Shown here: positions 30,661-47,282 of the stretch, piece after piece
How positions within the stretch are numbered: position 1 is the stretch's first letter
Layout: each line of letters begins with the position of its first letter
Assembly: GCF_001592225.1 (NCBI RefSeq)
Contig: NZ_BCWN01000016.1
Location: forward strand, 1 to 64,000
Source: Castellaniella caeni NBRC 101664
GTDB taxonomy: Bacteria > Pseudomonadota > Gammaproteobacteria > Burkholderiales > Burkholderiaceae_B
Length of the DNA stretch: 64,000 bases
Direction of reading: 5' to 3'
The notes under the pieces: generated by a model
The model's input: only the letters and a program-made list of their open reading frames with translations
What the model was told of the DNA's origin: nothing
Databases searched by the model: none
Translations under genes and position numbers: made by a program

Positions 30661-31095
30661 TCAGCGGTAAGACGCCAGCAACTGATCGATGACCGGATCC
30701 ATTTTTGACTTCGTGCCGGCCCATTTGTTCAACGCAAAGCCGCCCTTGCCTTTCAAGTGATACTGAGCATACGCCACCTGTCTGCCATCCTGTCGAATCC
30801 AGAGCTCGGCATCTACCAGATAGGTTACAAAATCCCAGGAGCGCCGGGCGGTATACGTCATCACATACTCACAGTGCTCCATGACGTCTCCCGAAAAGAC
30901 CTCTGTAGTGATGCCATGCCGATCAAACCCAGAACGCACAACGTCTACAAAATCGCTCACCTGCACTTTCGGATTCAACTGAATGCAGACGTGCCGCAAA
31001 TTTGCTGCTCGATCTACCGGCGTGACCGTGATTGCAGTACATGCCGTCAGGCTGGCGACGGCACATCCGGCCACAAGAAGGTGCATATTGGCCAT
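30661..31095 (-). CDS. Sbal_3080-like lipoprotein at the distal end of the APE operon
   Basis: This 144-aa predicted outer-membrane lipoprotein has a signal peptide and lipobox L-T-A-C with Cys19. It resembles the Sbal_3080 family (conserved P-V-D, C-I-Q-L-N-P-K-V and R-H-G-I-T-T-E-V segments), whose function is unknown. A good AGGAG precedes the ATG. The 12-bp gap from the PPTase stop makes it the last gene of the operon. Its base composition looks less GC-rich than its neighbours, so recent acquisition is possible. Confidence 0.75.
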   Translation of the reverse strand: MANMHLLVAGCAVASLTACTAITVTPVDRAANLRHVCIQLNPKVQVSDFVDVVRSGFDRHGITTEVFSGDVMEHCEYVMTYTARRSWDFVTYLVDAELWIRQDGRQVAYAQYHLKGKGGFALNKWAGTKSKMDPVIDQLLASYR

Positions 31096-31107
31096 TGAAA
31101 CTCCTTT

Positions 31108-31809
31108 TTAGACAATGAGAGAAAGACGGACGATGGGCGTAGCCAACCTGGCCAGGCAGCAGGCGATGGAGAGGCCTTGCGCCAGCTGGTGCTGCACGGC
31201 ATGAGTGCGGCTATAGGGGGGGTGCGGCTGCACGGCAAGGTTGGCCATGTCCCAGACGCTGTGGCCTTGCCGCTTCAGCAGGGCTTCACGCACCGTCCAG
31301 AGCGTCCAGAAGGCATCGGCCTGGGCGGGGGTGCCGTGCAGAGATTCCAGGTGCACAGTCTCCGCCTGCGAAAAGTACTGCCGGGCGATGGTCATGAGGC
31401 CCGCGCGCGGACGCAGCAGCTCGATGTCGCAGCCGACGGGCTGCTGGTCGGGGCCCAGCAGCACGGCGATGAAGCCGCCGCTGTGGCTGATGCTGAAAGC
31501 GGGCATGGTCGGGCTCGCGGGCAGCGGCTTGCCCGATGGCCCCACAGGCAAAGCGGGCAGCCGACCCTGGCCCAGCAGGCACGCCAGCAGCACGCGACCA
31601 GCCAACCAGGCCGCGCGCCGCGCCGCGGGCTGCTGCGGCGCCTGCGCCAGCAACGCCGCGGACAAGTGTTCGCGCGCCAATGCCTCCGACGCGCAGGCGT
31701 CGATGCGTGCCAGTACAAGACGGGCTGGCACGCCGGGGCGGCCAGCATGCTCAGACCCCGGCGCAGGCACGATCCCGGCAACGGACAACGAGGGCGCGAA
31801 CACCGGCAT
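31108..31809 (-). CDS. 4'-phosphopantetheinyl transferase dedicated to the APE carrier proteins
   Basis: This 233-aa Sfp/AcpT-type PPTase would transfer phosphopantetheine from CoA to the two ACPs encoded in the same operon. Motifs S-I-S-H-S-G, V-G-C-D-I-E (Mg-binding) and W-T-V-R-E-A-L-L-K are intact. The start at 31809 is chosen because GAGGGG lies 8 nt upstream; an earlier ATG at 31863 would lie inside apeR. Start and apeR stop are 4 nt apart. Confidence 0.9.
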   Translation of the reverse strand: MPVFAPSLSVAGIVPAPGSEHAGRPGVPARLVLARIDACASEALAREHLSAALLAQAPQQPAARRAAWLAGRVLLACLLGQGRLPALPVGPSGKPLPASPTMPAFSISHSGGFIAVLLGPDQQPVGCDIELLRPRAGLMTIARQYFSQAETVHLESLHGTPAQADAFWTLWTVREALLKRQGHSVWDMANLAVQPHPPYSRTHAVQHQLAQGLSIACCLARLATPIVRLSLIV

Positions 31810-31813
31810 CCGT

Positions 31814-33040
31814 CTATGCCCCTCGGCGAATGACCAGCGAAGTATTGATGCCGCCAAAGGCAAAGTTGTTGCTCTGAAAAAATTCGGTCTGAACCGGGCG
31901 CGCTTCGCTCACGATGTGGTCAAGCGCAGCGCATTCCGGGTCGGGCTGGCGGAGGTTGAGCGTGGGGGCGAACCAGCCCTCGCGCATCATCTCCAGCCCC
32001 AGCCAGACTTCCAGCGCACCGCAAGCGCCCAGGGTGTGGCCAAAGTAGCTCTTCAGGGAAGAAATCGGCGTGTCGGCGCCAAAGACATTAGCCGTGGCGC
32101 GGCTCTCGGCCACGTCGCCCCGGCTGGTGGCCGTACCATGCGCGCTGATATAGCCGATGTCGGGCGCGGCCAGGCCGCTCATATCCAGCGACTGCTGCAG
32201 GCATGCCTGCATGGTTTCCCAATTGGGCTGCGTGATGTGCGTGGCATCGCAGTTGGTGGCGAAACCCAGCACCTCGCCGTAGATGTGCGCGCCGCGCGCC
32301 TTGGCGTGATCCATGTTTTCCAGCACCAGCGTGCCCGCACCCTCGCCGATCACCAGGCCGTCGCGCTGCGTATCGAACGGCGCGGGCGTGAGCTGTGGCG
32401 CATCGTTGCGCTGGCTGGTGGCAAACAGAGTGTCGAACACCGCCACTTCAGTCGGGCACAGCTCTTCGGCGCCGCCCGCCACCATCACCGTCTGCAGGCC
32501 GTGGCGGATGGCCTCGAAGGCATAGCCGATGCCCTGGCTGCCCGAAGTGCAGGCGCTGGACGTGGGAATGACGCGCCCGCGCAGGCCGAAGAACAGGCCG
32601 ACATTGACCGCTGCCGTATGCGGCATCATCTGCACGTACGTGGTGCCGGTGATGTTGCGCGTGTGCTTTTCCACCAGCATGACGGCAAAGTCGCTGATCG
32701 GGCCCGTGCTGCCGGTAGACGAGCCATAGGCGATACCCGTGGCACCGTTGGTGAGCACCGGATCGTCCACCAGGCCAGCCATGGTCAAGGCATGCTCGGT
32801 GGCCCGGGTGGCCAACAGGGACACCCGCCCCATCGAGCGGATCTTCTTGCGCGTGTAGTGCCCAGGCAGCGCAAAATCCACCACTGGCGCCCCCAGGCGT
32901 GACCCCAGGCCATCGTAGACATCCCACTCAGGCATCCGGCGCACGGCATTGCGGCCCTCGCGGATGCGCGCCGAGATGCTGGCCCAGTCTTCGCCAAACG
33001 CGGTCACCCCGCCCATCCCCGTAATCGCCACGCGGTTCAT
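31814..33040 (-). CDS. apeR: Beta-ketoacyl-ACP synthase ApeR (KS of the aryl polyene system)
   Basis: This 408-aa FabF-type condensing enzyme has a catalytic Cys in S-S-A-C-T-S-G-S and His residues in G-T-A-T-S-R-G-D and F-G-H-T-L-G-A. In the studied Xenorhabdus/E. coli system ApeR is a stand-alone homodimeric KS acting in early elongation. It overlaps apeQ by 4 bp (ATGA) and is the last core APE gene before the PPTase, the standard order of APE clusters. Confidence 0.92.
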   Translation of the reverse strand: MNRVAITGMGGVTAFGEDWASISARIREGRNAVRRMPEWDVYDGLGSRLGAPVVDFALPGHYTRKKIRSMGRVSLLATRATEHALTMAGLVDDPVLTNGATGIAYGSSTGSTGPISDFAVMLVEKHTRNITGTTYVQMMPHTAAVNVGLFFGLRGRVIPTSSACTSGSQGIGYAFEAIRHGLQTVMVAGGAEELCPTEVAVFDTLFATSQRNDAPQLTPAPFDTQRDGLVIGEGAGTLVLENMDHAKARGAHIYGEVLGFATNCDATHITQPNWETMQACLQQSLDMSGLAAPDIGYISAHGTATSRGDVAESRATANVFGADTPISSLKSYFGHTLGACGALEVWLGLEMMREGWFAPTLNLRQPDPECAALDHIVSEARPVQTEFFQSNNFAFGGINTSLVIRRGA

Positions 33041-33774
33041 GCCATCCCCCCATTGATTGAAATGACTTGCCGCGTGACGTAGGCGGCAATGTCGGACATC
33101 AGATACGCGGCCAGGCCGGCCACTTCGTCAGCCGTGCCCATGCGCTGTGCCGGAATCAGGCCCATAGCCTGCTTGAGCGCCTCAGGTTCGATTTGCACCA
33201 TGGCCGTGTCGATGAGGCCCGGCGCAATGCAGTTGACGGTGATGCGCCGCTTAGCCAGCTCGATGGCCAGCGCCTTGGTGGCGCCGATGAGCCCCGCCTT
33301 GGCCGCGCTGTAGTTGACCTGCCCGCGATTTCCCATCAGGCCGGACACGGACGACAAGGTCAGGATCCGGCCTCCCTGGCGCAGGCCGATCATGGGCATG
33401 ACGCACGGCTGCACCACGTTGAAAAAGCCATCCAGGTTGGTCTGTATGACCTGATCCCAGTCGCCATCCGTCAACGCCGGAAAAGCGGCATCGCGTGCCA
33501 GGCCTGCATTGCAGACCACGCCATACCAGGCGCCGTGCGCATCCATGTCGCGCTCCAGCGCCGCGCGGCAGGCGGCGCGGTCGGCCTGATCAAACTGGAT
33601 CAGACGCCCCTGCCCACCCGCCTCGCGGAGGCGCGCCAGCGTGACGGTAGCCCCGGCCAGATCACGGTGATAGTGCACGCCCACCCGAAAACCATCGGCT
33701 GCCAGACGGCAGGCAATGGCCTGGCCGATCCCCTTGCTGGCCCCCGTGACCAGCACCGAACGCAGTTGCGTCAT
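33037..33774 (-). CDS. apeQ: 3-ketoacyl-ACP reductase ApeQ
   Basis: This 245-aa FabG-type short-chain dehydrogenase reduces the beta-keto group after each condensation in aryl polyene assembly. The NADPH motif T-G-A-S-K-G-I-G is at residues 10-17, and the catalytic Ser-Tyr-Lys set is in S-S-V-S-G and Y-S-A-A-K. Coupled by 4-bp overlaps to apeP upstream and apeR downstream. Confidence 0.94.
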   Translation of the reverse strand: MTQLRSVLVTGASKGIGQAIACRLAADGFRVGVHYHRDLAGATVTLARLREAGGQGRLIQFDQADRAACRAALERDMDAHGAWYGVVCNAGLARDAAFPALTDGDWDQVIQTNLDGFFNVVQPCVMPMIGLRQGGRILTLSSVSGLMGNRGQVNYSAAKAGLIGATKALAIELAKRRITVNCIAPGLIDTAMVQIEPEALKQAMGLIPAQRMGTADEVAGLAAYLMSDIAAYVTRQVISINGGMA

Positions 33775-34244
33775 GATGAACCTCTTTCAAACAGCGCCGC
33801 CAGCTCGTGGGCGGCAACCTGACAGGTGCTGAGTCGCGCCTGGGCCAGAAGCACGTCTCCCTGGCGAATATCGGCCTCGAAGCCGCCAATGCGCTCATCG
33901 CGCGCCAGCAGCGTGACGTGCACGTCCAGCACGACTCCCGCAGCAAATGCGGGCACCTTGGCGGAAAAGCGCCGCGCCCCCAGCAGCATGCCCAGAGCGA
34001 TGTCCTGGGCGCCGGCCTGACGCTGATGCCAGCCCGACCACACAGCCACGGCCTGCGCCATGATTTCCAGGCCGAACCAGGCGGGTACGGCACCCGCCGC
34101 GTTCAGGAACGGCGCCAGCACCCCGGTGCGGCTGACCGTCACGCGGCAATGGCAGGTCTCGGCATCCACCGCCCGCAGTTCGTCGAGCAGCAGCATGGGC
34201 GCCCGGTGCGGCAGGTAATGATGTACCGGCAGAAAATCGCTCAT
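33771..34244 (-). CDS. apeP: Hotdog-fold dehydratase ApeP
   Basis: This 157-aa FabA/FabZ-like hotdog protein has the N-terminal L-P-H-R-A-P-M-L-L-L-D segment. In the characterised APE system ApeP forms a heteromeric dehydratase with ApeI, which in this window is encoded at 41136-41510. Start 34244 overlaps the apeO stop (ATGA); open codons upstream to 34430 lie inside apeO. Confidence 0.87.
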   Translation of the reverse strand: MSDFLPVHHYLPHRAPMLLLDELRAVDAETCHCRVTVSRTGVLAPFLNAAGAVPAWFGLEIMAQAVAVWSGWHQRQAGAQDIALGMLLGARRFSAKVPAFAAGVVLDVHVTLLARDERIGGFEADIRQGDVLLAQARLSTCQVAAHELAALFERGSS

Positions 34245-35434
34245 GCGGCCGCCCCCAGAATCAGGCTGGTATTGTTGCCGCCAAAGGCAAAGGCGTTCGA
34301 CATGACGAGCGGTCGCCGCAGGCGGCCCGGCGCCTGCAACAGGCCAAAGGGCGGCAGGCGCGCATCGAGCGGACTGTGACTGAAGTCCTGCGCGGGCAAG
34401 GCCAGCGGCTGCGTCAGCAGCAGCCAGCACAAGGTGGCTTCGCAGGCCCCCGCCGCGCCCAGGGTGTGGCCCAGCAGATGCTTGACCGAGCTGCAGGGCA
34501 CCTGCTCGCCGAACACCTGCGCCACGGCCTGCGCCTCGACTTGGTCGTTGGCCTGCGTGGCCGTGCCGTGCAGATTAATGTAGGCGACGTCCGCGGCCCG
34601 CACGTCGGCATCCTGCAGCGCCATCCGCATGGCCCGCACAGCCCCGGCACCCTCCGGGTGCGGTGCCGACATGTGCCAGGCATCGCTGGATTCACCCACA
34701 CCCAGCAGCGCCAATGGCTGCGGTTCGCGCGTGAGCAGCAGCAGGGCCGCGCCTTCGCCGATGTTGATGCCCCGGCGGTCGCGGGCAAACGGCTGGCAGC
34801 GCTCGGGCGACAACAGCTCCAGGCTGTCGAAGCCGTTGATCGGCATGCGGCTCAAGGTGTCGGCCCCGCCCACGAGGGCGGCATCAGCCAGGCCCGCGGC
34901 AATCAGGCGGCGGCCACTGATGATGGCTCGAGCGCTGGACGAACAGGCCGTCGAAACGGTGTACGCCGGGCCCGTGAGTCCCAGAAAACTGGCCAGAAAA
35001 CGCGCTGGGTCACCCAGTTCCTGTTGTTCGTAGTGATAGCCGTCCGGCCCGGCAGCGGGCCCTTCGCCGCCCGCCGCGCCCTGGACGCGGCTGTAGTGTC
35101 GATCGGATTCGTCCAGCCCGGACGTGCTGGTGCCCAGGACGACGGCCACCCGATCCGGGCCAAAACGCAGCACATCGGCATCGACCTGGGCGCGCACCTG
35201 TTCCAGCGCCAGCAGCAGCAAGCGGTTGTTGCGCGAGTCGTGGCGGGCCCAGGCCACAGGAGTCGACGGCAGCTCGCCCCCCACTGCGCCCAACATGGCG
35301 CGGCGGCCGCCCTGCAGCCAACCGTCACGCAGCTGCATGCCGGGCGCGCGGCCCGCGGCCAGATGGGTGGCGGTTTCTCGCAGATCGCGCCCCAAGGCGC
35401 TGCAAAGCCCCGCGGCAGCACAATAAATCATCAC
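34241..35434 (-). CDS. apeO: Beta-ketoacyl synthase ApeO (catalytic partner of the chain-length factor)
   Basis: This 397-aa ketosynthase carries a Cys in S-T-A-C-S-S-S, His in H-G-T-A-T-Q and His in L-L-G-H-T-L-G-A. By analogy with the known ApeO:ApeC heterodimer it would perform chain elongation together with the chain-length factor encoded at 44822-45574. ATG codons at 35434 and 35431 are both possible starts. It follows the DUF3261 lipoprotein gene after 13 bp, and its stop overlaps apeP. Confidence 0.9.
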   Translation of the reverse strand: MMIYCAAAGLCSALGRDLRETATHLAAGRAPGMQLRDGWLQGGRRAMLGAVGGELPSTPVAWARHDSRNNRLLLLALEQVRAQVDADVLRFGPDRVAVVLGTSTSGLDESDRHYSRVQGAAGGEGPAAGPDGYHYEQQELGDPARFLASFLGLTGPAYTVSTACSSSARAIISGRRLIAAGLADAALVGGADTLSRMPINGFDSLELLSPERCQPFARDRRGINIGEGAALLLLTREPQPLALLGVGESSDAWHMSAPHPEGAGAVRAMRMALQDADVRAADVAYINLHGTATQANDQVEAQAVAQVFGEQVPCSSVKHLLGHTLGAAGACEATLCWLLLTQPLALPAQDFSHSPLDARLPPFGLLQAPGRLRRPLVMSNAFAFGGNNTSLILGAAA

Positions 35435-35447
35435 AGCATTATCTCAA

Positions 35448-36014
35448 TCAATCGTCCAGGTTCTGGATGTGAATGTCGTAGCCAAAGGCGCGCTGCTGCA
35501 CCTGTACGGGCCGACGTCCGCCGGGGGCTGCATCATAGTCGATGCGCGTGACAATCTCGCCCCGCTCGTCCAGCAGCCGACGCTGCAGGCCTGCGTCCAC
35601 CAGCTGCCAGCCCGTCGGCAGGACGGCCTGCCAGGCAGCCACCGGCCAGTAGCTCAACATGATGTCGGAGAGCACCTGCGCCGCGGGCGGCAGGCCCGGC
35701 GCCGCAACGTGCTGGCGCGCCTGCAGGCCGTGCGCATCATACTGAAGCGTGAAGAGCCGTATGCCCACCATCGAAAGCCCCACGAGCGACAGGCGGCGGG
35801 CATCCGCATCGAGCACGACCGTGAGCGCATGTTCACGCCCGCGATAGCGGCTGGTGAGCAGTTGATGGGCCTGAACGGCGGGTGTCAGCCCCGGCTGCGG
35901 CAGGAACACACGCACGCCGGGCCGCAGCCAGGCGCTGGGCCGCGCGCCATCGGGCACGCTGGCGCAAGACGACAGCACCAGCAGACACAGCAGAGCGAGC
36001 AGGCGTTTCAACAT
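35448..36014 (-). CDS. apeN: DUF3261 lipoprotein ApeN
   Basis: This 188-aa predicted lipoprotein has a hydrophobic leader and lipobox L-S-S-C (Cys17). The body matches the DUF3261 proteins found next to the MMPL exporter in APE clusters, where an outer-membrane role in pigment placement is presumed. The symbol is assigned by position in the conserved order. Its start lies 7 nt inside the apeM 3' end. Confidence 0.82.
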   Translation of the reverse strand: MLKRLLALLCLLVLSSCASVPDGARPSAWLRPGVRVFLPQPGLTPAVQAHQLLTSRYRGREHALTVVLDADARRLSLVGLSMVGIRLFTLQYDAHGLQARQHVAAPGLPPAAQVLSDIMLSYWPVAAWQAVLPTGWQLVDAGLQRRLLDERGEIVTRIDYDAAPGGRRPVQVQQRAFGYDIHIQNLDD

Positions 36015-38329
36015 GAGGGTTCCGTCACGGGAGGGTCTGAATCGGGCAGTGCCAGGGGGGCCAGCAGAAAGGCCGTCAGAATGCCAACGCTGAGCACGAT
36101 GCCAAAACTGCTGATGGCCCGCGTGCTGCTGAAAACCAGCACGCCCAGCGTCAGCAACGTGGTCAGCATGGCCAGCAGCACGGCAAACAGCGAGGTTCTG
36201 GGCGTGCCCCTGGGGTTGCCGAAGAAAATGGTGTAGTTGATGCCGATGCCCAGCACCAGCACCAGGGCCAGTAGCGAGAACAGATTGGCACTGCGCCCGA
36301 AAAGCGTCAGGGCGCCCAGCCCCAGAGCCAGCGACAGCAGTGAGGGCACGCTGGTGCGCAGGCCACGGCGCCAGCCCAGCCGGGCCACCGACACGGCACA
36401 GACCACGCCCAGGGCCAGGATCAGCAGTCCGCCGAGCATCCGCCGGTAACGGGCAAAGAGCTGATCGAAAGCCGCCTTGCGATCGATCCAGTGGATGCCG
36501 TCAGCGGGCTGCGCCAGCGCCGCCAGCGCGGTCGTCTGGCTGACGCCCGCCACAGGCACGAGTACGGCGCTGCGGCCATCGGGCAGACTCAACCACAGCA
36601 GGCGCCAACCCTGGCTGGCCGGGCTTGCCAGCCAGGCCTGCGGCTCCAGCGGCACCAGGCGGGTGTCGGCCGGGGGCAGATCCAGGCCAACGGCGGTCAG
36701 CGCCTGCCGCACCCCGGCGGCAGCCGCCCGCAGCAGGCGCTGATCCTCCACCTGGCGCTGCAGGGAATGCAGGGGTAAGGCGCGGTACGATCGCAACCAG
36801 CCCGCCGCCTGCGCCCGGGCCAGCCGAGGCACGAACGCATCCAGGCGTTCGAGCGCCTGCTGAGGCGAGCGCCCCACGATCAGAAACCACTTCTGATCCA
36901 TACTCTGCCCCGTCAGCCCGGTGATGCGCCGATCCTGCGCCTGGATGCGGGCGGGCGGTTCCTGCAGCTGGGCGATGTCGTCGCTGAAAGGCAGGCGACC
37001 GAGCGCCAAGGCTGCCAGCCCGGCTAGCAGCAGGGGGACGCCCACGCGCACCAAGCGCCGGGTGCGCCAGAGCCGCAGCCAAGCGTCCAGCTGTGACAGG
37101 CAGGGCACTGGCGCGGCGCGCAGGGAATGAGTCAGCAGCGGATGCCAGAGCACGACCGTGAGACAGGCCGCACACAGCCCCGCCGCCGCGAAGATCGCCA
37201 GCTGGCGGATGCCGGGGAACGGTGCCAGGGTCAGCAGCAGGTACGCCACGGCGCTGGTGCCCAGCGCCATGAACAGCGCCGGGCGCACGCGCCCCATGCT
37301 GCGCCAGGGCGATTCCTCATAAGGCCGCGCGCGGCGCTCGACCAGGTAATACAGGGCGTAGTCCACCGAAATCCCCACCACGCTCAGACTCATCGCCAGG
37401 GTCATCAGGTGTACTTCGCCAAACAGGGCCACCGTGAGCGCCGTCCCCCACAGGGCACCCATGCCCACCGACAGGACGCACAGCAGCAGCGGCAAGAGGC
37501 TGCGAAAGGCCACCAAGATCAGCAGCACCACGCCGAGTATCGTCACACTGCCGATCACCGTCACGTCGTGCCCGGCCTGACGCGCCGCGTGCGCGCTGTA
37601 GAACAAGCTGCCACGCGAGAGCACGCTGGCCTGGGGATGGGCCGCCAGGAAGGCGGCTTCTTCCCGGCGAAACACCGCCACCAGCGCGCGCGTGCGGCTC
37701 ATGTCGAAACTGGAAGCCTGCAACTGGGCGGGCAGAAAATACCAGAAACGCCCCTGGGCGTCGCGCGTGCTCAACCAGCCATCGTTCAGGCTCAACGCGC
37801 CCGCTCCCTGCATGAGCGCCATCTGCGCGCCACGCACCAGCATCAGGGGGTCGTGCGCAAGCTCTTGTTGCCCCACGCCCGCGAAGGCCGAATACAACTG
37901 CCCCAGCACCCACTGCGCCTGGACATCGCTGCCCGCCTGCAGGCGGGCACGCGTCTGGGCATCCAGCAGGCTGTTGCGATAAGTATGGAAGAACTGCAGC
38001 CACTGCCGCTGCAGCTGCGGGGTCATCGGCCCCTGCACCTCGGCCACGCCTGGCAGCGCCAGCATGCGCGTGCGCCACTGGGCCGCCAACCGCGCATCGG
38101 GCTGCGTGCCCGGTGACACCATCCAGACCACCTGGCGATCCAGTCGGCGCGTGAAGGCCCTCTCAAGATCGGCTGCCGTTGCGTCCTGCGACTGTACGGG
38201 CAGCAGCGCCAGCACGCTGGCGTTGACGGGCACCGCCGCCCAGCGACTCAGCAGCCAAGCGGCGGCCACCAGGCACGCCACCAGCCAAATCAGCGCCGCC
38301 TTAGAATTGAAAGTATCGAGCTTCGGCAT
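36008..38329 (-). CDS. apeM: MMPL/RND-family exporter ApeM
   Basis: This 773-aa membrane protein of the MMPL/HAE-3 type has two repeats, each with one leading helix, a large periplasmic loop and about five clustered helices (roughly 12-30, 240-400, 415-435 and 615-750). Such transporters move lipids or lipid-linked products out of the inner membrane. The neighbouring LolA-like and lipoprotein genes suggest delivery of the polyene lipid to the outer membrane. It overlaps the apeL 3' end by 29 nt, an unusually long overlap for this operon. Confidence 0.9.
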   Translation of the reverse strand: MPKLDTFNSKAALIWLVACLVAAAWLLSRWAAVPVNASVLALLPVQSQDATAADLERAFTRRLDRQVVWMVSPGTQPDARLAAQWRTRMLALPGVAEVQGPMTPQLQRQWLQFFHTYRNSLLDAQTRARLQAGSDVQAQWVLGQLYSAFAGVGQQELAHDPLMLVRGAQMALMQGAGALSLNDGWLSTRDAQGRFWYFLPAQLQASSFDMSRTRALVAVFRREEAAFLAAHPQASVLSRGSLFYSAHAARQAGHDVTVIGSVTILGVVLLILVAFRSLLPLLLCVLSVGMGALWGTALTVALFGEVHLMTLAMSLSVVGISVDYALYYLVERRARPYEESPWRSMGRVRPALFMALGTSAVAYLLLTLAPFPGIRQLAIFAAAGLCAACLTVVLWHPLLTHSLRAAPVPCLSQLDAWLRLWRTRRLVRVGVPLLLAGLAALALGRLPFSDDIAQLQEPPARIQAQDRRITGLTGQSMDQKWFLIVGRSPQQALERLDAFVPRLARAQAAGWLRSYRALPLHSLQRQVEDQRLLRAAAAGVRQALTAVGLDLPPADTRLVPLEPQAWLASPASQGWRLLWLSLPDGRSAVLVPVAGVSQTTALAALAQPADGIHWIDRKAAFDQLFARYRRMLGGLLILALGVVCAVSVARLGWRRGLRTSVPSLLSLALGLGALTLFGRSANLFSLLALVLVLGIGINYTIFFGNPRGTPRTSLFAVLLAMLTTLLTLGVLVFSSTRAISSFGIVLSVGILTAFLLAPLALPDSDPPVTEPSC

Positions 38330-39400: not shown

Positions 39401-41139
39401 GGCGCCTCCTTGACGGCGTCCACCGGGGGCGGCGCCTGCCAGAAATCATAGAAATTGAACCAGTCCAGTGGCGACATCAGCGCATGCTGCTCCAGTCGCC
39501 GGGCATATCGATCCACCATGGCCTGCAGGCGCTGTGGGCGCTCGGCGCGCGGCGCCAGGGGCGGGGCCTCGAAGGGCTCACAGTGGATCACGCGCTGCCG
39601 CCCAACGCGCAAGGCGAACATCAGCACCACCGGCGCCCGCAAGGTGGCGGCCAGAATGAAGGGGCCCGCTGAAAAGGGGGCCGGACGCCCCATGAACGGG
39701 CTGTACACGATGCGCAGGGCCCGATCCCGCGCATGGCCGACGGACAGCCGATCGCCCAGGATCGCCACCCACTCGCCAGCATCCAGCTTCTGCTGCAGCA
39801 CGAGCGCCGTCTCCGGCCCCAGCTCGCGCACCGACAGCAGGTGTACGGTCGCCCGCGGCGAAAATTCCTGCAATATCTGGTTGTAGCGCCGGGCGTGATC
39901 CGTGAAGACCAGGGCCGTGATGACCTGGCCCGCGGACTGCTCGGCCAATGCGCGGCAGACCTCGAGATCCCCCAGGTGCGCGCCCAGGATCAGGGTGCCG
40001 CGCCGCGCAACGGGCGACAGCACGGCCTGCGCTCCGGGGGCCAGCACCACATCGCGCCCCAACACCAGGTCGCCGCGCCAGCCGGCAATTTTGTCGAGCA
40101 TGGCCTGCGCGAAGCGGCGAAAGTGCCGATAACTGTTCAAACCGCGCGGCAACACCGTACCAGTGGCGTCGGCGTGGCGGCGCACCACTGCCAGCCACTG
40201 GCGGGACGCCCGCCGCGCCGCCCCGGCGCTGCACCAGTATGCCGCCACCACCGGATACAGGGCCAGCTCGAAGGCGGTGCGTCCCAGGGCCTGGTACAGG
40301 CGCATCATGATGCGCATGCCCAGCAGGCCGCGCAGCTCTTCCTGCTGCGCCCAGTGGCGTATCCGGCGTCCGGCCAGCAGTCGCGGCAGGCGGCGCAGCA
40401 TGCCGAAGAACAGCCGCGCGTGCATCCAGCTGATGCGCACGTTGTCGCGCAAGGCATCAAAATTGGACAACCCACCTTCGGGATAGATCACGCGTGTAGG
40501 CACGAAGCGCACCGGTGTGCCCGCCCAGTACAGGCGCACCATCACCTCGGGGTCGAAATCCATGTAGCGCCCCAGAAGGGGCACCTGCCGCGCCAGGCTC
40601 AACACCGGCGCCAGCGGATAGACCCGAAAGCCGCACATGGCATCGTGGATCTGCAGGGACAGGGTTTCGATCCACACCCAGATATGCGTGAGGTAGCGGC
40701 CATAGCGGCGCACTGCGGGGATGGATGCGTCATACACCGGCCGCCCGGAAATCAGAGCGTCGGGATGGCGTCGGGCTTCGGCCAGCAGCTGCGGGACATC
40801 ACCGACGTCGTGCTGACCGTCAGCATCGATCTGCAGAGCGTGCCAATAGCCCGCCTGCCGCGCGGCCTGAAACCCTGCCAGCACCGCCCCACCCTTACCC
40901 TGATTGCCGGACAGGCGCACAACCGTCACCCAGGCATACTGCTGCGCCAGGGCGTCGATCTGCACGCGGGTGGGCGGCGCGCTGCCGTCATCGACGATGA
41001 AGCAGTGCAGGCCAAATGCAGCCAGGCGTTGCAGGACGCCCGACAGGCTGGCGCCGTGGTTGTAGCAGGGGATAACGAGGCAACACTGCAGATCGCCCGC
41101 GGCGGCCTGCGCCGCGCCGTTCACAACCCCGGTATTCAC
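39397..41139 (-). CDS. apeJ: Glycosyltransferase family 2 / lipid A acyltransferase-like fusion ApeJ
   Basis: This 580-aa two-domain protein has an N-terminal GT2 glycosyltransferase (~15-250) with V-D-D-G-S and the D-A-D-G-Q-H metal motif. A C-terminal LpxL/LpxM-type acyltransferase domain (~290-560) has the H-x4-D/E motif in A-H-L-G-D-L-E. Both motifs look intact. The combination suggests building an acylated glycolipid anchor to which the polyene chain is joined, consistent with APEs being cell-envelope lipids. The exact acceptor is inferred. Coupled to apeI and apeK by ATGA overlaps. Confidence 0.87.
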   Translation of the reverse strand: MNTGVVNGAAQAAAGDLQCCLVIPCYNHGASLSGVLQRLAAFGLHCFIVDDGSAPPTRVQIDALAQQYAWVTVVRLSGNQGKGGAVLAGFQAARQAGYWHALQIDADGQHDVGDVPQLLAEARRHPDALISGRPVYDASIPAVRRYGRYLTHIWVWIETLSLQIHDAMCGFRVYPLAPVLSLARQVPLLGRYMDFDPEVMVRLYWAGTPVRFVPTRVIYPEGGLSNFDALRDNVRISWMHARLFFGMLRRLPRLLAGRRIRHWAQQEELRGLLGMRIMMRLYQALGRTAFELALYPVVAAYWCSAGAARRASRQWLAVVRRHADATGTVLPRGLNSYRHFRRFAQAMLDKIAGWRGDLVLGRDVVLAPGAQAVLSPVARRGTLILGAHLGDLEVCRALAEQSAGQVITALVFTDHARRYNQILQEFSPRATVHLLSVRELGPETALVLQQKLDAGEWVAILGDRLSVGHARDRALRIVYSPFMGRPAPFSAGPFILAATLRAPVVLMFALRVGRQRVIHCEPFEAPPLAPRAERPQRLQAMVDRYARRLEQHALMSPLDWFNFYDFWQAPPPVDAVKEAP

Positions 41140-41510
41140 GCTCCCTCCGGGTCGAGGAAACGCACGCGCCCCCGGCTGAGCGGGCGGCGCGCGCCGTCGG
41201 CTTCCTGCTCATAGGTGAAATCCAGCCGGTGAAGATCGGCCAGCCAGTGCAGAGATAACCACAGCGTGTCACCGGGCCGGGCCGGCGACTGAAACTTCAC
41301 CTGATCCAGACCACCAAAGGCTGCCGTGATGCCGAACAAGGCCTGCGCGTAACCCAGCGCCCAATCCACCTGCACCACGCCCGGCAGGATCGGACACTGC
41401 TCAAAGTGCCCCTGAAACCAGAACGCATCCTCGGGCAGCCGCACGCACAACGCCACCTGGTCGGGCGCCCGCCACTGGCGCTGCAGCTCGGTCGGTTTCA
41501 TGCGCCTCAT
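41136..41510 (-). CDS. apeI: Hotdog-fold dehydratase ApeI
   Basis: This 124-aa FabA/FabZ-like protein has F-Q-G-H-F-E-Q-C-P-I-L-P-G-V-V-Q, where H-F and L-P-G-V form the active-site loop. It would pair with ApeP as the dehydratase that creates each double bond. The ATG at 41510 overlaps the apeH stop (ATGA); another in-frame ATG at 41501 cannot be excluded. Confidence 0.88.
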   Translation of the reverse strand: MRRMKPTELQRQWRAPDQVALCVRLPEDAFWFQGHFEQCPILPGVVQVDWALGYAQALFGITAAFGGLDQVKFQSPARPGDTLWLSLHWLADLHRLDFTYEQEADGARRPLSRGRVRFLDPEGA

Positions 41511-42916
41511 GAAAAAAGCTCCCGCAGCTGCGGCTGCACGCACTTGCCCATGCTGTTGCAGGGGATGCTGGCAACGACCCGCCAATGCCGGGGAATCGCC
41601 ACCGGCTCGAGCCACCGACGCAACTGCTGGCGCCAAGCGGCCTGCAGGCGTGGCAGCCCGTCGGGCGCCGCGGGCGCGGCCAGCGTCAGCACCACCCCCA
41701 GCCCCTGCCGCCCGGCCCGGTCGAGATAGACCGCCACGGCGTCCTGTACGCCGTCCAAGGCGCGCACCCGGGCCTCGACTTCATCGAGCGACACCCGCTT
41801 CTCTTCGATCTTCACGATACGATCCCGCCGTCCCAGCAGCTGGAACCGGCCATCGGCGTCAAATTCGAGTTGATCGTCCAGCGCCTGGCCCGCGGGGGCA
41901 TCGATCAGGGGCGAGCGCACTTGCCAGCCGCCCGACACAGCCCGAAAGCGGACATCGGCAAAGGCCTGCCAGCGGGCCCCCGGCGAATCGCGCAGGCGCC
42001 AGGCCAGCACGCCGGTTTCCGTGCTGCCGTAGATTTCATGGGCTGCCACACCCAGCCAGGCCGCCGCCTGTCGGGCAGGCGCCTCGGCCAGCGCGCCGCC
42101 CGCGGAGAGCAGCCAGCGCACGCTCGGAGCTGACAGGCGCGTATCCAGGCGCTTGAGAAATGCCGGGCTGCTAACGAAGGCCAGCGGCTGGCCCGGCGGC
42201 AACGCACCCAATGCCTCCGGATACGGAATCTGCCCGGCATGCAGGGTCAGCCCCAGCGCCATCGGCAGAAAAATGCGGAAAGTGAGCCCATACAGGTGCT
42301 GATGCGTCACCGACGCCACGACCATGCAGCCTGCCAGTTGCGCGCCGAACTGAGCGGCTAGCCAGGCGGCTTCGAGATCCATGGCGGCCACGGTCTTCAC
42401 GACGCGGCGCGGCGTCCCTGTCGAGCCCGAGGTGAACAGCTCCAGCGTGGCCTGCGGCGGCAGCGCGGCCAGGGTAGCCACCGGATCATCCAGGCCCACT
42501 GGGGATACTGCGGCGGGCCCGACCTGCGCGGGGCCTGACGCGTTCGCGGCACGCGCGGTCACTGCCAGCACGGTTCGCTCCAGCCCGCCCAGGGCCTGCC
42601 GCAAGGCGGGCCGGTCGGTCAGCACGGCATCGAAGCACGCGCCCTGCTCGCGCAAGGCGGCCTCTTGCAAGTTGCCGGGGATGACGGGCGTACGCCCCGC
42701 GTGCAAGGTGGCCAGCAAAGCGGCCAGAAACGCGCCGCTGTCGTCAAAACACAGGGCCCAGCGCCGCTCGGGCCGGGCAGCCAGCTGCCGAGCGAGCATG
42801 GCTACCCACGCCCGCAGGGCGCCACGCGTCAAGGGCTGCACCCGCTCGCGTGCGATCACTGGGTCGGACGCCCGATCCGGCGCCAGCCAGTCTGCCATAG
42901 GCAATGTCCGCATCAC
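41507..42916 (-). CDS. apeH: AMP-dependent aryl-acid:ACP/CoA ligase ApeH
   Basis: This 469-aa adenylate-forming enzyme has the P-loop F-T-S-G-S-T-G-T-P (residues ~165-173), the Y-G-S-T-E-T-G motif and the C-terminal G-R-R-D hinge and N-S-M-G-K lysine. It is presumed to activate the aromatic starter acid (4-hydroxybenzoate or a cinnamate in known APEs) and load it on an ACP. Length is shorter than typical acyl-CoA ligases (~550), as usual for ApeH. No ammonia-lyase is present in the operon, so the acid must come from elsewhere. Confidence 0.88.
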   Translation of the reverse strand: MMRTLPMADWLAPDRASDPVIARERVQPLTRGALRAWVAMLARQLAARPERRWALCFDDSGAFLAALLATLHAGRTPVIPGNLQEAALREQGACFDAVLTDRPALRQALGGLERTVLAVTARAANASGPAQVGPAAVSPVGLDDPVATLAALPPQATLELFTSGSTGTPRRVVKTVAAMDLEAAWLAAQFGAQLAGCMVVASVTHQHLYGLTFRIFLPMALGLTLHAGQIPYPEALGALPPGQPLAFVSSPAFLKRLDTRLSAPSVRWLLSAGGALAEAPARQAAAWLGVAAHEIYGSTETGVLAWRLRDSPGARWQAFADVRFRAVSGGWQVRSPLIDAPAGQALDDQLEFDADGRFQLLGRRDRIVKIEEKRVSLDEVEARVRALDGVQDAVAVYLDRAGRQGLGVVLTLAAPAAPDGLPRLQAAWRQQLRRWLEPVAIPRHWRVVASIPCNSMGKCVQPQLRELFS

Positions 42917-43500
42917 GCCCCCGCCCGCCGGATCACCCGTCGGCGCACGGCATATTCAAGCACCATCAGCCCTCCCATCAGGCCATAGGCGATACCGCCG
43001 TTCCACAAGGCCCACCAGTCGAGATCGCCCGCCAGGCAACTGTGCAGAGCCACGGCGCCATTGCAGGCAAAAAAGACCGTCCACACCTGCGTGACCCGCC
43101 GGGTATAGGCAACCGCAGCCGTCGGCAGATCGGGCGTGCGCAACCGCGCGATGCGCTCTACGAGTGACGGGCCTTGCCACAGCGACAGGCCGAACAGCGC
43201 CAGCAGCACCCCATTGATCACCACGGGGTAGTACAGCAGCCAGCCCTGCTGGCGCAGCAACAGGCTGGCCAGCACCAGCGCGGCGGCACCCACCGTGCCG
43301 GGCAGCGCCAGTACGCGCAAGGGTGATGCCCCCGCAGCCGCGCCACGCAGGCACCACAGGCGCACGAGCAACAGCAGGCCCAGGGCAGGAGCCAGCCACG
43401 ACATCTGGCCGCGGGTGATGCCCAGCCAGACGAGGACGGGCCACGCGACCAGCACGACGCCGCTCGCCCACGCAATCGACATGGACTTGATCAAGCTCAC
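42913..43500 (-). CDS. apeG: APE-cluster integral membrane protein (COG4648 type) ApeG
   Basis: This 195-aa protein has about six hydrophobic segments and no recognised enzyme motif. Proteins of this kind sit between the ACP and ligase genes in most APE clusters and have no established biochemical role. The symbol is positional. It overlaps apeF and apeH by 4 bp each. Confidence 0.78.
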   Translation of the reverse strand: MSLIKSMSIAWASGVVLVAWPVLVWLGITRGQMSWLAPALGLLLLVRLWCLRGAAAGASPLRVLALPGTVGAAALVLASLLLRQQGWLLYYPVVINGVLLALFGLSLWQGPSLVERIARLRTPDLPTAAVAYTRRVTQVWTVFFACNGAVALHSCLAGDLDWWALWNGGIAYGLMGGLMVLEYAVRRRVIRRAGA

Positions 43501-43781
43501 GCGGCCCCAGCGGCGGGGGCTTCCTGCAGTAGCGCCTGAACGACCCGCACGACGTCCTGCACCGTGCGCACTGACTTGAACACTTCCGGGCGCACACGGC
43601 GGCCCGTCTTTTTCTGCAGGTGCACTACCATATCCACGGCGTCGATGCTGTCGAGCTCGAGGTCTTCATACAACCGGGCCTCGGGGGTGACCTGCTCGGG
43701 CGTGAGGTCGAAGAGCTGCACCAGCAGGGCCGACACTTCGTCCAGCAGCGCGGCGGAGTCCAGCGTGCTCAACGTATTCAT
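43497..43781 (-). CDS. apeF: Acyl carrier protein ApeF
   Basis: This 94-aa four-helix carrier protein has the phosphopantetheine attachment motif E-L-D-S-I-D-A-V-D (Ser about residue 44). It is one of two ACPs; in the characterised system one receives the aryl starter and extender units. The in-operon PPTase is its likely activator. ATGA overlaps on both sides keep it stoichiometrically linked to apeE and apeG. Confidence 0.92.
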   Translation of the reverse strand: MNTLSTLDSAALLDEVSALLVQLFDLTPEQVTPEARLYEDLELDSIDAVDMVVHLQKKTGRRVRPEVFKSVRTVQDVVRVVQALLQEAPAAGAA

Positions 43782-44035
43782 GCCGTCTGCCCCTCAATGA
43801 ACTGCGCCAGACTCGCCACCGAATGAAAGTGGCGGCGGGTGTCTTCCGCCTCGGCGGCCAGCACGATGCCGAAGCGGTTCTTCACCGCCAGGCCCAGTTC
43901 GAGCGCGTCGATGGAATCGAGCCCCAGCCCGTCCCCGAACAGGGGGGCCTGCGCATCGATGTCGTCGGCAGACATGCCTTCGAGGTTCAAGGTCTCGATG
44001 ATGAGCATCTTGATTTGTTGAATCAGGTCTTGCAT
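43778..44035 (-). CDS. apeE: Acyl carrier protein ApeE
   Basis: This 85-aa carrier protein has the motif G-L-D-S-I-D-A-L-E (Ser about residue 41). The sequence differs clearly from the second ACP, so the two probably have separate partners. It starts 10 nt after the apeD stop, the only small gap in this half of the operon besides apeA-apeB. Confidence 0.92.
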   Translation of the reverse strand: MQDLIQQIKMLIIETLNLEGMSADDIDAQAPLFGDGLGLDSIDALELGLAVKNRFGIVLAAEAEDTRRHFHSVASLAQFIEGQTA

Positions 44036-44045
44036 GGAACGATCT

Positions 44046-44825
44046 CTAAGAGAGACCCTGTAGGCCCTGCGTCAGACGTTCGGCCAGCACGCGTGTCAAA
44101 CGGCGGGCGGCCACCGAGGGCTCGGGTCGGGTATCGGAAAACAGCACGCCGGGACTCAGGCGGTCGCCGACGGAAACAGTGAAGACGGGCTTGCGGGCGG
44201 GCACATCGTACCAGTGGCTGTGTTTAGCCAAAATGGCTTCGCTGCAATGAATCGCAACCAGGCGTACGTCGCTGGGGCAACGCACGGCCACCTGGGCCGC
44301 CCCGCGCTGCAGGCTGATCGCTTGTCCGGGGCGAGTGCGCGTGCCTTCGGGAAAAATCAGGATACAGGCGCCTTGCGCCAGCCGCGCCCGGCAGTCATCC
44401 AGGAAGGTCTCGGCCCGATTGTTGACCAGATAGCCGGCGGCACGGATGACGCCGCCAAAAAACGGGTTAGACAACACTTCGGCCTTGACGACGCAGTCGA
44501 GCGTCGGCACGACCGCCGCCAGCATGACGTAATCGATGAGCGTGGGGTGATTGGCCACCACCAGGCAGCCCCGGTCGGCCCGCAGCTTTTCGGCCCCCCG
44601 CAGGCGAAACTCCAGCACCCCCAGGCGTGCGGCGGCCCAGAGGAAAAAACGGAAGGCGCCGGAAATCAGGTGCCGGGCGATCCACTGGCGGCGCGCGCCA
44701 CGGCGCAGCAACAGTACGGCGGACAGCAGCAGCGTGAGCAGCAGCCCGCCCACGCCGAACATCAGGAAGCAAAACCCGGTCATGATCAGGCGCCAGCACC
44801 AGCCAAGAGTCTGTGCGGGCGTCAT
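44046..44825 (-). CDS. apeD: 1-acylglycerol-3-phosphate-type acyltransferase ApeD
   Basis: This 259-aa PlsC-fold enzyme has an N-terminal membrane segment and motifs N-H-P-T-L-I-D (HX4D) and F-P-E-G-T-R-T. It probably transfers an acyl or polyenoyl chain to a lipid-type acceptor. Start 44825 is fixed by the ATGA overlap with the chain-length-factor gene; open codons upstream lie inside that gene. The symbol is assigned by conserved order. Confidence 0.84.
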   Translation of the reverse strand: MTPAQTLGWCWRLIMTGFCFLMFGVGGLLLTLLLSAVLLLRRGARRQWIARHLISGAFRFFLWAAARLGVLEFRLRGAEKLRADRGCLVVANHPTLIDYVMLAAVVPTLDCVVKAEVLSNPFFGGVIRAAGYLVNNRAETFLDDCRARLAQGACILIFPEGTRTRPGQAISLQRGAAQVAVRCPSDVRLVAIHCSEAILAKHSHWYDVPARKPVFTVSVGDRLSPGVLFSDTRPEPSVAARRLTRVLAERLTQGLQGLS

Positions 44826-45574
44826 GGCGTATGACTCCAGTGCCATTCGTGCGACTGGCCTTGCACCGCGTGCGCATCGCGCCCCTGCACCAGGGCCCGT
44901 AGCCACTGCAGGCTTTGCGGCAGGACGCCTGGCGTCGATACGCGCACAGCCGACGCCGGGCCCAGGGGCCGGGGCTGGCAGCGCCAATCGGTGCCGGGGA
45001 CAAGCAACAGGCACACAGCATAGGGCGCCACCGGCAGAACCACGCCAGCCTGCCGCTGGTAGAACGCCGGAATGTGTCCCTCGAAATCAGCCAGGATGAC
45101 CCGCCGATGGCCCGCCTGAAAGAAACCCATCACCTCGAACAGCGCCTGCTGGAAGGTATCAGCCCCGGCGGACAGGGACGTACTGACCAGCGGCTGGCCC
45201 GCCACGATCGTGCAGGTGCCTGCCGCCGCGTTATGCACCGACATGGTGAAATCGGTGGGCGACACCGGTTGGTCGGCGGCCAGCGACTGCAGGATGCGAT
45301 CGTTGCGCTCGAGCTCGCCGTGCTGGCTACACAGCACCAGGGCGTCCGCCGCCTGATCGGCCAGCAGGCTCAACACCCCATCGACCACCAGCCGGTCGCC
45401 CACCCCCAGGCGCCGCGCCGTCATCATGGGCAGGTGCCGCATGGCTGCGGCCGCATCCACGAGGTTGCCAGGCCGGGCCTGCGACGGGGGCAGCCACTTG
45501 GCGCAGCTGGCCAACGGCACGCGCGCGTGCCAGGCCAACAGACGAAAGTGAATGCCCTCCATTTCGATCCTCAC
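44822..45574 (-). CDS. apeC: Chain-length factor ApeC (truncated ketosynthase-like)
   Basis: This 250-aa protein matches only the N-terminal half of a ketosynthase. The segment S-P-T-D-F-T-M-S-V-H-N-A-A-A-G is preserved, but the region following it has no Cys-containing active site. In the studied APE system such a protein, ApeC, forms a heterodimer with ApeO and sets chain length. The short length is normal for this family and not a frameshift. Coupled to the methyltransferase gene by ATGA. Confidence 0.87.
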   Translation of the reverse strand: MRIEMEGIHFRLLAWHARVPLASCAKWLPPSQARPGNLVDAAAAMRHLPMMTARRLGVGDRLVVDGVLSLLADQAADALVLCSQHGELERNDRILQSLAADQPVSPTDFTMSVHNAAAGTCTIVAGQPLVSTSLSAGADTFQQALFEVMGFFQAGHRRVILADFEGHIPAFYQRQAGVVLPVAPYAVCLLLVPGTDWRCQPRPLGPASAVRVSTPGVLPQSLQWLRALVQGRDAHAVQGQSHEWHWSHTP

Positions 45575-46662
45575 TCAAAATCAGAAGCCGCCTTGCGGCA
45601 CACCAGCAACGTATGCCCCACCCCCAAGCCATCGACCTGCGACTCGATCTCGAGCCCCGCCTGTTGCACGAGCGCGACAAACTGCTCGGCACCATAAAAG
45701 CGGCTGGTGCCATTGGCCAGACAAGTGAAATACAGGGATGATGCATTCAGGCTGAAGGCACCGGCCTCGTAGGGCTGCCGATCCCAGAACAGTTCCATGA
45801 TGCACAACCGTGCCTGTGGCTGCATGGCGGCCGCCGTCTTGCACAAGATGGCCACGATCTGTGCCTCGGAAAAGCAGTCCAGAAACTGGCTCATCCACCA
45901 GACGTCGGCCTCGCCCGGCAGCGTCGCGTCGCAGAGCAGATCGACGGCGTGCAAGTGGATGCGCCCGGCCATGCCATGCGCGGCGACATTGTCGCGCGCC
46001 AGAGCAATCTGCTCGGGCAGATCCAGAATCGTCACCTGGACGTCACTATCGTACTCGCAACAGCGCAAGGCCCACTTGCCGGTATTGCCCCCCACGTCGT
46101 ACACGTGCTTGGGACCCAGGGCAAAAACCCGAGGCAAGGCCGCCTTGAAGGCGCCGTCCGAATAGAAGTGGTCAAAACCGAACCAGCTGTCCCGGGCCTT
46201 TTGCGGCAAGCGGCCGAGCAGCGGGTAAATGGTCTTGCCCTCGCCAAACCCGGACAGGCCTGCGGGGCGCCCTTCGCGCAGCGAGGTCGTCAGCTCGGCC
46301 AGCCCCTGGTAGCAGACATCCCGCGTGAAATGCAGGTTGACGCGGGTCATGGGGTCGTGCGTGAGGAAATGGCCGATCTTGCCCAGGTGGTACTGCTCGC
46401 CCTGGCGATACAGGATGCGGGCACTGAGCGCCAGATCCAGCAACACCCCTGCGGCGTAGCGATCCAGCGAGCACTGCGCGCAAATTTCATCCTGGGTAGC
46501 CCCCTGGCGGCAGCCCGACAGGAAGTCGAGCACGCCTAGCTCGCACAGACTGCTGGCGGCCTGAAACACCATGGGAGCAAAGGCGATCTTCTGCGCTTCG
46601 GTAATGGCTTCCAGCGCCGTCAGCGAATCGGCATCGTAGCCGTACCGTGAAGAGTCCGTCAT
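45571..46662 (-). CDS. apeB: SAM-dependent methyltransferase ApeB
   Basis: This 363-aa protein has an N-terminal winged-helix dimerisation domain (~20-110) and a C-terminal Rossmann methyltransferase with D-V-G-G-N-T-G-K-W (motif I). The layout is that of plant-type/AcnA-like O- or C-methyltransferases. It would methylate the aryl head group or the chain of the polyene. The symbol is positional. It starts 1 nt after the stop of the upstream lipoprotein gene. Confidence 0.84.
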   Translation of the reverse strand: MTDSSRYGYDADSLTALEAITEAQKIAFAPMVFQAASSLCELGVLDFLSGCRQGATQDEICAQCSLDRYAAGVLLDLALSARILYRQGEQYHLGKIGHFLTHDPMTRVNLHFTRDVCYQGLAELTTSLREGRPAGLSGFGEGKTIYPLLGRLPQKARDSWFGFDHFYSDGAFKAALPRVFALGPKHVYDVGGNTGKWALRCCEYDSDVQVTILDLPEQIALARDNVAAHGMAGRIHLHAVDLLCDATLPGEADVWWMSQFLDCFSEAQIVAILCKTAAAMQPQARLCIMELFWDRQPYEAGAFSLNASSLYFTCLANGTSRFYGAEQFVALVQQAGLEIESQVDGLGVGHTLLVCRKAASDFE

Positions 46663-46663
46663 T

Positions 46664-47053
46664 TCAGTTGGAATTGCTCAAGGCCAGGCGGCGCTGGATG
46701 TCGATGTCCAGATTGCGCACCCACTGGCCATACTTGCGGTGGATCTTGCCGTTGGCCGCCTTCATGTTGCGGCTATCCACGTAGTCGATCTGGTAACTGC
46801 TCGTACCGTAGGCGATGCGCACCTGCACCTCGTGGTCGCGCGTCAACAGCTTGCCGTCGATGACGCCCGAGGACACCGGCTTCATCATCCAGCCGCGCTC
46901 CAGCCCAGCCTGGATAATGGCGTCCTTCACCACCGTGAGGCTGCGCGCATGAATAGTGGCGGTTTGCGTCTGCTGCAGCGGCACAGTCTGCTGGCAAGCG
47001 GCCAAACCCAGGGCGCAGACCACCACGGCCAAAATACGATAGATGCGTTTCAT
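46664..47053 (-). CDS. First gene of the APE operon: small lipoprotein (apeA position)
   Basis: This 129-aa predicted lipoprotein has lipobox L-A-A-C (Cys20) and a ~105-residue periplasmic or outer-membrane domain of unknown function. Similar small proteins head many APE clusters, so it occupies the apeA position; my recall of that naming is not certain enough to give the symbol. GAGGGG lies 5 nt before the ATG, deciding the start over an upstream frame to 47140. It follows the promoter and leader at 47079-47168. Confidence 0.78.
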   Translation of the reverse strand: MKRIYRILAVVVCALGLAACQQTVPLQQTQTATIHARSLTVVKDAIIQAGLERGWMMKPVSSGVIDGKLLTRDHEVQVRIAYGTSSYQIDYVDSRNMKAANGKIHRKYGQWVRNLDIDIQRRLALSNSN

Positions 47054-47078
47054 GAAATCCCCTCGTAAGACGTAAGAA

Positions 47079-47117
47079 CGCCGTGCGTGCCCTGGATTCA
47101 GGGTTGGACACACGGCG
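47079..47117 (-). promoter_or_regulatory. Stem-loop in the 5' leader of the APE operon
   Basis: CGCCGTG (47079-47085) pairs with CACGGCG (47111-47117). Inside it CCCTG (47090-47094) pairs with CAGGG (47099-47103) around a GATT tetraloop. The structure lies between the inferred transcription start near 47133 and the first ribosome binding site. It could stabilise the long mRNA or act in attenuation. No following U-tract is seen. Confidence 0.45.
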
Positions 47118-47139
47118 TGCGTAATGGCAAAGCGGGGCA

Positions 47140-47168
47140 ATTATAACAACTCGTAAATATCGTGTTAT
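47140..47168 (-). promoter_or_regulatory. Main promoter of the APE operon (extended -10)
   Basis: On the minus strand a perfect TATAAT (47140-47145) is preceded by TGT, giving an extended -10 TGTTATAAT. It is separated by 17 bp from ATAACA (47163-47168, 4/6 to TTGACA). The surrounding 60 bp are strikingly AT-rich in a GC-rich genome. This should be a strong sigma-70 promoter, start near 47133, unless an AT-binding repressor silences it. Confidence 0.65.
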
Positions 47169-47209
47169 TAATATTTCAAATGTGACGATGCATATGATGC
47201 CTATAAGGC

Positions 47210-47236
47210 TGATAAGACAATGCCCGCCCTGGCGGG
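47210..47236 (-). terminator. Probable secA terminator
   Basis: The palindrome CCCGCC-CT-GGCGGG (47223-47236) lies 46 nt beyond the secA stop. On the minus strand CATTGTCTTATC follows, a moderately T-rich run. If inefficient, secA transcripts would read into the APE operon. The remainder of the 229-bp gap holds the APE promoter and leader. Confidence 0.45.
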
Positions 47237-47282
47237 ACACCAGCCTGCGCCGAACGGCGGTCGAGCCGGTGCCACCCTTGGA

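Follow-up and report, generated by a model that had tools for sequence, protein, structure and literature searches.

The 64,000-nucleotide (nt) stretch of Castellaniella caeni NBRC 101664 analyzed here (contig NZ_BCWN01000016.1, positions 1 to 64,000; hereafter, the window) carries a complete aryl polyene (APE) operon at 31108-47053 on the minus strand, running from apeA to apeR and followed by a gene for a phosphopantetheinyl transferase (PPTase). Judged from its sequence, this operon is very probably functional and of the type found in Escherichia coli and other Enterobacterales. The basis for this identification is its gene content, gene order, and motifs, its matches to protein families and solved structures, its kinship, and the purifying selection acting on it. 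The operon is well identified and ordinary in kind; its novelty lies in where it probably came from and in its different locations among members of the genus.

On the minus strand, 20 consecutive open frames follow each other between 47053 and 30661, none of them interrupted by a stop codon. In order, they encode a lipoprotein, a methyltransferase, a chain length factor (CLF), an acyltransferase, two acyl carrier proteins (ACPs), a membrane protein, a ligase, a dehydratase, a glycosyltransferase-acyltransferase, a thioesterase, a LolA-like protein, an MMPL protein, a DUF3261 protein, a ketosynthase (KS), a second dehydratase, a ketoreductase, a second KS, a PPTase, and a further lipoprotein. 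A preliminary description of this DNA had read the same 20 genes as following the APE order, and the frames bear this out, most of them being assigned by Pfam and NCBIfam models. In the features listed below, starts are from the analysis of gene junctions, while for several genes the longest mechanical frame served as the query; gene-by-gene identities to E. coli refer to the APE copy L002 in E. coli STEC639 and not to that in strain CFT073.

47140-47168, minus strand: promoter-like site upstream of apeA (ATAACA, 17 nt, TATAAT preceded by TG), from a consensus scan
46664-47053, minus strand: apeA-like lipoprotein, 129 amino acids (aa); 44% identity to the gene that opens the E. coli APE cluster and 84% to the congener G002; LAAC lipobox-like motif
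45571-46662, minus strand: apeB, S-adenosylmethionine-dependent methyltransferase (head group); FlxJ-family methyltransferase model at 1.7e-134, below the model cut-off; 61% to the E. coli APE methyltransferase; GGNTG motif
44822-45574, minus strand: apeC, CLF, 250 aa, N-terminal ketosynthase domain only; PDB 6qsp_B (E 3.8e-55); Ketoacyl-synt_2
44046-44825, minus strand: apeD, lysophospholipid-type acyltransferase; PF01553; HPTLID and FPEGTR; 56% to E. coli
43778-44035, minus strand: apeE, ACP; NF006617 above cut-off; DSI; 69% to E. coli
43497-43781, minus strand: apeF, ACP; NF003757 above cut-off; DSI; 68% to E. coli
42913-43500, minus strand: apeG, membrane protein; 47% to E. coli apeG
41507-42916, minus strand: apeH, aryl-ACP ligase (AMP-binding); PF00501; TSGSTG and YGSTE; two-piece match to E. 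coli at 45-48%
41136-41510, minus strand: apeI, dehydratase; PF22818 (ApeI-like) at 3e-22, above cut-off; PDB 6qsr_A
39397-41139, minus strand: apeJ, GT2 glycosyltransferase fused to an LpxL-like acyltransferase; PF00535; HLGDLE; weak, below-cut-off lysophospholipid acyltransferase match over residues 378-548
38984-39400, minus strand: apeK, 4HBT thioesterase; PF13279; 56% to E. coli
38301-38987, minus strand: apeL, LolA-like carrier; PF19574; flexirubin LolA2 model below cut-off
36008-38329, minus strand: apeM, MMPL/RND exporter; PF03176; 53% to E. coli
35448-36014, minus strand: apeN, DUF3261 LolB-like lipoprotein; PF11659 at 3.1e-36; LSSC lipobox-like motif
34241-35434, minus strand: apeO, KS and partner of ApeC; PDB 6qsp_A at 1.4e-160; NF006618 above cut-off; TACSS, HGT, and KHLLGH motifs
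33771-34244, minus strand: apeP, dehydratase; PF22817 (ApeP-like) at 5.9e-37, above cut-off; PDB 6qsr_B
33037-33774, minus strand: apeQ, ketoreductase FabG2; TIGR01831 above cut-off; 76% to E. coli
31814-33040, minus strand: apeR, KS; NF006587 above cut-off; PDB 4ewg and 7f27; 76% to E. coli ApeR
31108-31809, minus strand: AcpT-like PPTase; PF01648 above cut-off; NF007676 at 1.3e-39, below cut-off
30661-31095, minus strand: Sbal_3080-family lipoprotein; NF040519 at 127 bits (cut-off 80)

The ApeA-like lipoprotein had no Pfam or NCBIfam match and the ApeG membrane protein no Pfam match; apeC could alternatively start from the ATG at 45562. The close coupling of the operon genes is real. Twelve junctions permit 4-base overlaps, the number given in the preliminary description, although not all are ATGA as stated there: seven are ATGA (C-D, E-F, H-I, J-K, O-P, P-Q, and Q-R) and five are GTGA (B-C, F-G, G-H, I-J, and K-L), with an ATG that gives a 1-base overlap as the alternative start at G-H and K-L. 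The remaining junctions are gaps of 1 nt (A-B), 10 nt (D-E), 13 or 16 nt (N-O), 4 nt (R-PPTase), and 12 nt (PPTase-lipoprotein) and overlaps of 29 nt (L-M) and 7 nt (M-N). Position 47168, previously given as the upper end of the operon, is no coding end but the first base of the promoter-like site; this was the single such site found in 46900-47300, against a mean of 0.3 in shuffled sequences, a count that is not evidence of function.

The original assignment as an APE operon is supported by family models, solved APE structures, and the published 18-gene order of E. coli CFT073. In a profile search for the Ape families, both KSs, the CLF, and both dehydratases fell with APE proteins, and the KSs and CLF were not placed outside the APE group. 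ApeI and ApeP matched the APE-specific families PF22818 and PF22817, respectively, above cut-off, and their best PDB match was 6qsr, which we take to be the ApeI-ApeP pair of Xenorhabdus doucetiae; 7f27, matched by ApeR, is presumably the ApeR of Acinetobacter baumannii. For ApeO and ApeC, the best PDB match was 6qsp (chains A and B, respectively), described in PMC8358021 as the X. doucetiae ApeO-ApeC complex; the same paper describes one thiolase domain for the CLF, and the 250-aa ApeC likewise has a single domain. That paper further identifies 4ewg as probably the ApeR of a Paraburkholderia and discusses residues Tyr135, Phe202, and Leu229 of the A. baumannii enzyme (PMC8358021), all of which are kept in the window's ApeR together with Cys164, so that the aryl-pocket residues Tyr135 and Phe202 are in place. 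The two ACPs match general carrier-protein models and are 68-69% identical to their E. coli APE counterparts. Two ACPs, an aryl ligase, a thioesterase, two acyltransferases, and the LolA/MMPL/DUF3261 export set are all present. The preliminary description had reported every checkable active-site motif as intact, and this holds for the motifs examined here, which do not cover all catalytic residues of all enzymes.

The closest described system is the APE cluster of E. coli CFT073 (APE_Ec; c1204-c1186), for which Table 1 of PMC8253772 lists apeA to apeR in the order found here. The two share 18 genes, their order, their predicted functions, a methyltransferase, and the lack of a dedicated precursor gene. 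They differ in that APE_Ec has no PPTase of its own according to that paper, whereas a PPTase gene follows apeR here, and in that the present host, a high-GC bacterium, lies outside the Enterobacterales. In the plasmid collection, the best named matches to its SecA were Neisseria (60%), Aeromonas (59.1%), and E. coli (58.8%), in keeping with such a position; no 16S was found in the assembly. The first 18 genes are also colinear with L002, with protein identities from 34% (ApeI) to 76% (ApeQ and ApeR). The APE locus on a Cedecea neteri plasmid (NZ_CP023526) shares the gene order and has an annotated acpT PPTase gene directly after the last KS, but no methyltransferase match was found there. The likeness to the X. 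doucetiae cluster (APE_Xd) is known from the structures 6qsp and 6qsr, the best PDB matches for the four proteins concerned. Within the host's order, the APE clusters seen in stretches of G012, G014, G042, and G048 have most of the same gene set but are more distant, with an ApeR of 58-65% identity, and the four 19-kb stretches gave no ApeB match. As separate observations, one locus of the host's order (L147, G266:C11) has a methyltransferase 56% identical to ApeB downstream of apeR and not near the cluster start, and in L002 the genes H, J, L, and P each match in two pieces, as if mutation or sequencing error had disrupted the reading frames.

Some family matches point toward a relative of APE clusters with a different aryl lipid, for example a product of the flexirubin type (a dialkylresorcinol ester) or one of the xanthomonadin type. 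Specifically, FlxJ is the best model for ApeB, the LolA2 model for flexirubin is a weak match to ApeL, and FlxB matches ApeQ as well. However, all three matches lie below cut-off, and genes 1-18 pair in order with the E. coli APE cluster and the 19th with Cedecea acpT; therefore, no gene is left for another pathway. In flexirubin clusters, by definition, the polyene genes are accompanied by the dialkylresorcinol genes DarA/DarB. Within the operon, to which the search for resorcinol genes was confined, no DarA/DarB pair was found, and DarB models touched ApeR at only ~3e-4; weaker matches of ApeH, ApeO, and ApeQ were considered among the best 25 listed. We regard a product of this other kind as extremely improbable. 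That the FlxJ, LolA2, and AcpT models match below their curated cut-offs nevertheless counts against an assignment to the E. coli type of APE operon.

The PPTase is probably part of the system. A related PPTase gene also follows apeR in G002, and a related one comes within 500 nt after apeR in 23 of 80 Enterobacterales/Aeromonas loci. For E. coli, whose cluster is without a PPTase of its own, AcpT is described in PMC8253772 as able to activate ApeE/F homologues. Because PPTase domains occur in all ten genus genomes (one to three in each, host included), the operon PPTase may not be the only one capable of activating the ACPs.

On the model of the E. coli and Xenorhabdus systems and of the scheme in PMC8253772, the PPTase would arm ApeE/F, and ApeH would activate 4-hydroxybenzoate supplied by chorismate lyase and load it onto an ACP. 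ApeR and ApeO-ApeC would then lengthen the chain with malonyl units, and in each round ApeQ together with ApeI/ApeP would reduce and dehydrate it to yield a conjugated polyene. ApeB would methylate the ring, ApeK would release the acid, ApeD and ApeJ would join it to lipid, and ApeL, ApeM, and ApeN would carry the product to the outer membrane. The product would be expected to be a yellow, membrane-bound pigment with an antioxidant role. A source of 4-hydroxybenzoate is present, as a UbiC-family chorismate lyase is encoded elsewhere in the host genome (G000:C1:9871-10344; PF04345, 39 bits, cut-off 23.6). Because the operon has a methyltransferase and the genome this lyase, we infer a methylated 4-hydroxyphenyl polyene of the E. 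coli type. The preliminary description had left the specific head group open; it is less open than was stated there.

A comparison of 19 genes between the window and G002 gave, by Nei-Gojobori counting, a synonymous divergence (dS) of 0.736, a nonsynonymous divergence (dN) of 0.103, and a dN/dS of ~0.14, indicating that the operon has been maintained under purifying selection. This ratio, together with 20 open frames, intact motifs wherever checked, and a promoter-like site upstream, argues against a silent or decaying operon without a product, a reading that we hold to be very unlikely even though the operon is present in only two of the ten genus genomes.

The operon appears to have its nearest kin outside the host's order. 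In the 80 loci kept of 346 relatives found in genome_contigs, all 80 from Enterobacterales or Aeromonas, ApeR is 71-78% identical to that of the window. By comparison, a sample of 399 genomes of the host's order (not including G002) gave 43 ApeR matches at E 1e-120, all ≤65% identical except the host itself, and a class sample of 369 genomes, thin in Enterobacterales judging by the identities, gave 32, all ≤63% except the host. An ApeR tree built from 79 rows, namely 43 of the 80 loci kept, 15 of 29 from the class sample, 15 of 29 from the order sample, and six further rows, one of them the window, places the window and G002 within the enterobacterial group (SH-aLRT 96). A tree from the joined sequences of ten proteins, covering the window and 36 loci with genes missing in some rows, agrees with this. 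Approximately unbiased (AU) tests rejected holding the window with seven loci of the host's order (p 1.7e-51, an overstatement given that the seven are not one clade in the free tree) and holding Enterobacterales and Aeromonas together without the window operon (p 0.00019). The grouping with Enterobacterales/Aeromonas homologues is well supported.

Within the genus, ApeR of >90% identity was found in two of ten genomes, i.e., the host and G002 (94%), and ApeI matched over cut-off in the same two. In the window, the operon sits between secA and mgtE, which are convergent. All seven congeners compared here (G001-G006 and G009; G007 and G008 were left out of this comparison) have the two genes side by side, with no APE match and 20-585 nt between the alignment ends. 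In G002, where this site is thus empty, the operon lies elsewhere, between an L,D-transpeptidase/DUF882 pair and a gene that by eye resembles an arsenite transporter. G009 differs little from G002 (dS of 0.03-0.06 for three genes), yet neither ApeR nor ApeI was found in it; because its assembly is 89% complete, the absence is not certain. The grouping with Enterobacterales/Aeromonas, the different sites in the two carriers, and the empty secA-mgtE sites together suggest an old horizontal acquisition of the operon.

We also considered vertical descent in the host's order with a mere resemblance to the enterobacterial form. The base composition, which is near that of the host (G+C 67%; G+C at third codon positions (GC3) 82%, compared with 87-89% in three flanking genes), would fit such descent, as would the dS of the APE genes between the two carriers, which is near that of core genes. 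On the other hand, identity of ApeR does not exceed 65% in the other genomes of the order sample but reaches 71-78% in the enterobacterial and Aeromonas loci, SecA shares just 58.8% identity with its E. coli counterpart, compared with 76% for ApeR, and both AU constraints described above were rejected, the one with the seven order loci subject to the same overstatement. We regard vertical descent in the order as very unlikely.

Several observations weigh against acquisition from an enterobacterial source as proposed here. The APE dS of 0.736 compared with a core dS of 0.640 between the window and G002, together with the host-like G+C content, is also compatible with inheritance inside the genus accompanied by relocation and losses; the similarity of the two dS values means either that the acquisition is not a recent event or that both carriers diverged together and one copy moved. 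The ten-protein tree was calculated without a mixture model, the window row was flagged for odd letter make-up, and the two carriers sit on a long branch (0.62). The AU tests of a position inside versus beside Enterobacterales disagree: 25 enterobacterial rows held together without the operon gave p 0.066 and, without Limnobaculum, p 0.00012. All AU tests are from quick searches with groups named after the tree had been seen, and the last three p values agree poorly. By eye, no mobile element or duplication was seen at the junctions, where no systematic search was made. Among literature titles on aryl polyenes and horizontal transfer, we found none on such a transfer, which is no proof that none is in print.

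The preliminary description had ended the operon with the PPTase gene and a further lipoprotein gene. Both are present and the PPTase probably belongs, but the terminal Sbal_3080-family lipoprotein probably lies outside the APE system. Its gene has a G+C content of 53.6% and a GC3 of 61%, compared with 67% and 82% in the operon. The family was found in the host but in none of the nine congeners, and over cut-off in two of 61 relatives; in 80 Enterobacterales/Aeromonas loci and 11 further APE-gene loci, the lipoprotein had no tblastn match. The family occurs in 11 of the 369 genomes of the class sample at E 0.001 (eight over cut-off), and co-occurs with ApeR in three, including the host, while in the other two (G587 and G626) the genes are on different contigs. 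A role as a new anchor or transport part was rejected based on this composition, rarity, and absence from APE loci, and the gene is most simply a separate arrival and later neighbor. In G023, however, a below-cut-off Sbal_3080 match (30.6 bits; L227, G023:C1:1835783-1836139) is flanked by apeP and apeQ of that genome's APE cluster, which speaks a little for a link between this lipoprotein and APE genes.

Elsewhere in the window, a mechanical frame of 1159 aa at 25133-28612 was considered as a fusion and rejected, as only about residues 775-1153 match M20 amidohydrolase; its front part is arginine/proline-rich and by eye reads as non-gene. In a megablast search of positions 1-25000 against plasmids, the segment 15276-16562 showed ~76% DNA identity to a gene annotated as an arsenic transporter on a plasmid of Roseomonas mucosa.

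On balance, we lean toward a history in which an enterobacterial-type APE operon passed from one order to another as a single block, bringing its own PPTase, and then moved at least once within the genus. If true, APE operons would travel as self-sufficient units, and this copy would show the PPTase travelling alongside the pathway. The copy that looks transferred, the empty sites in relatives, and the congener copy elsewhere would provide a natural comparison, with and without the operon, of pigment and of survival under oxidative stress.

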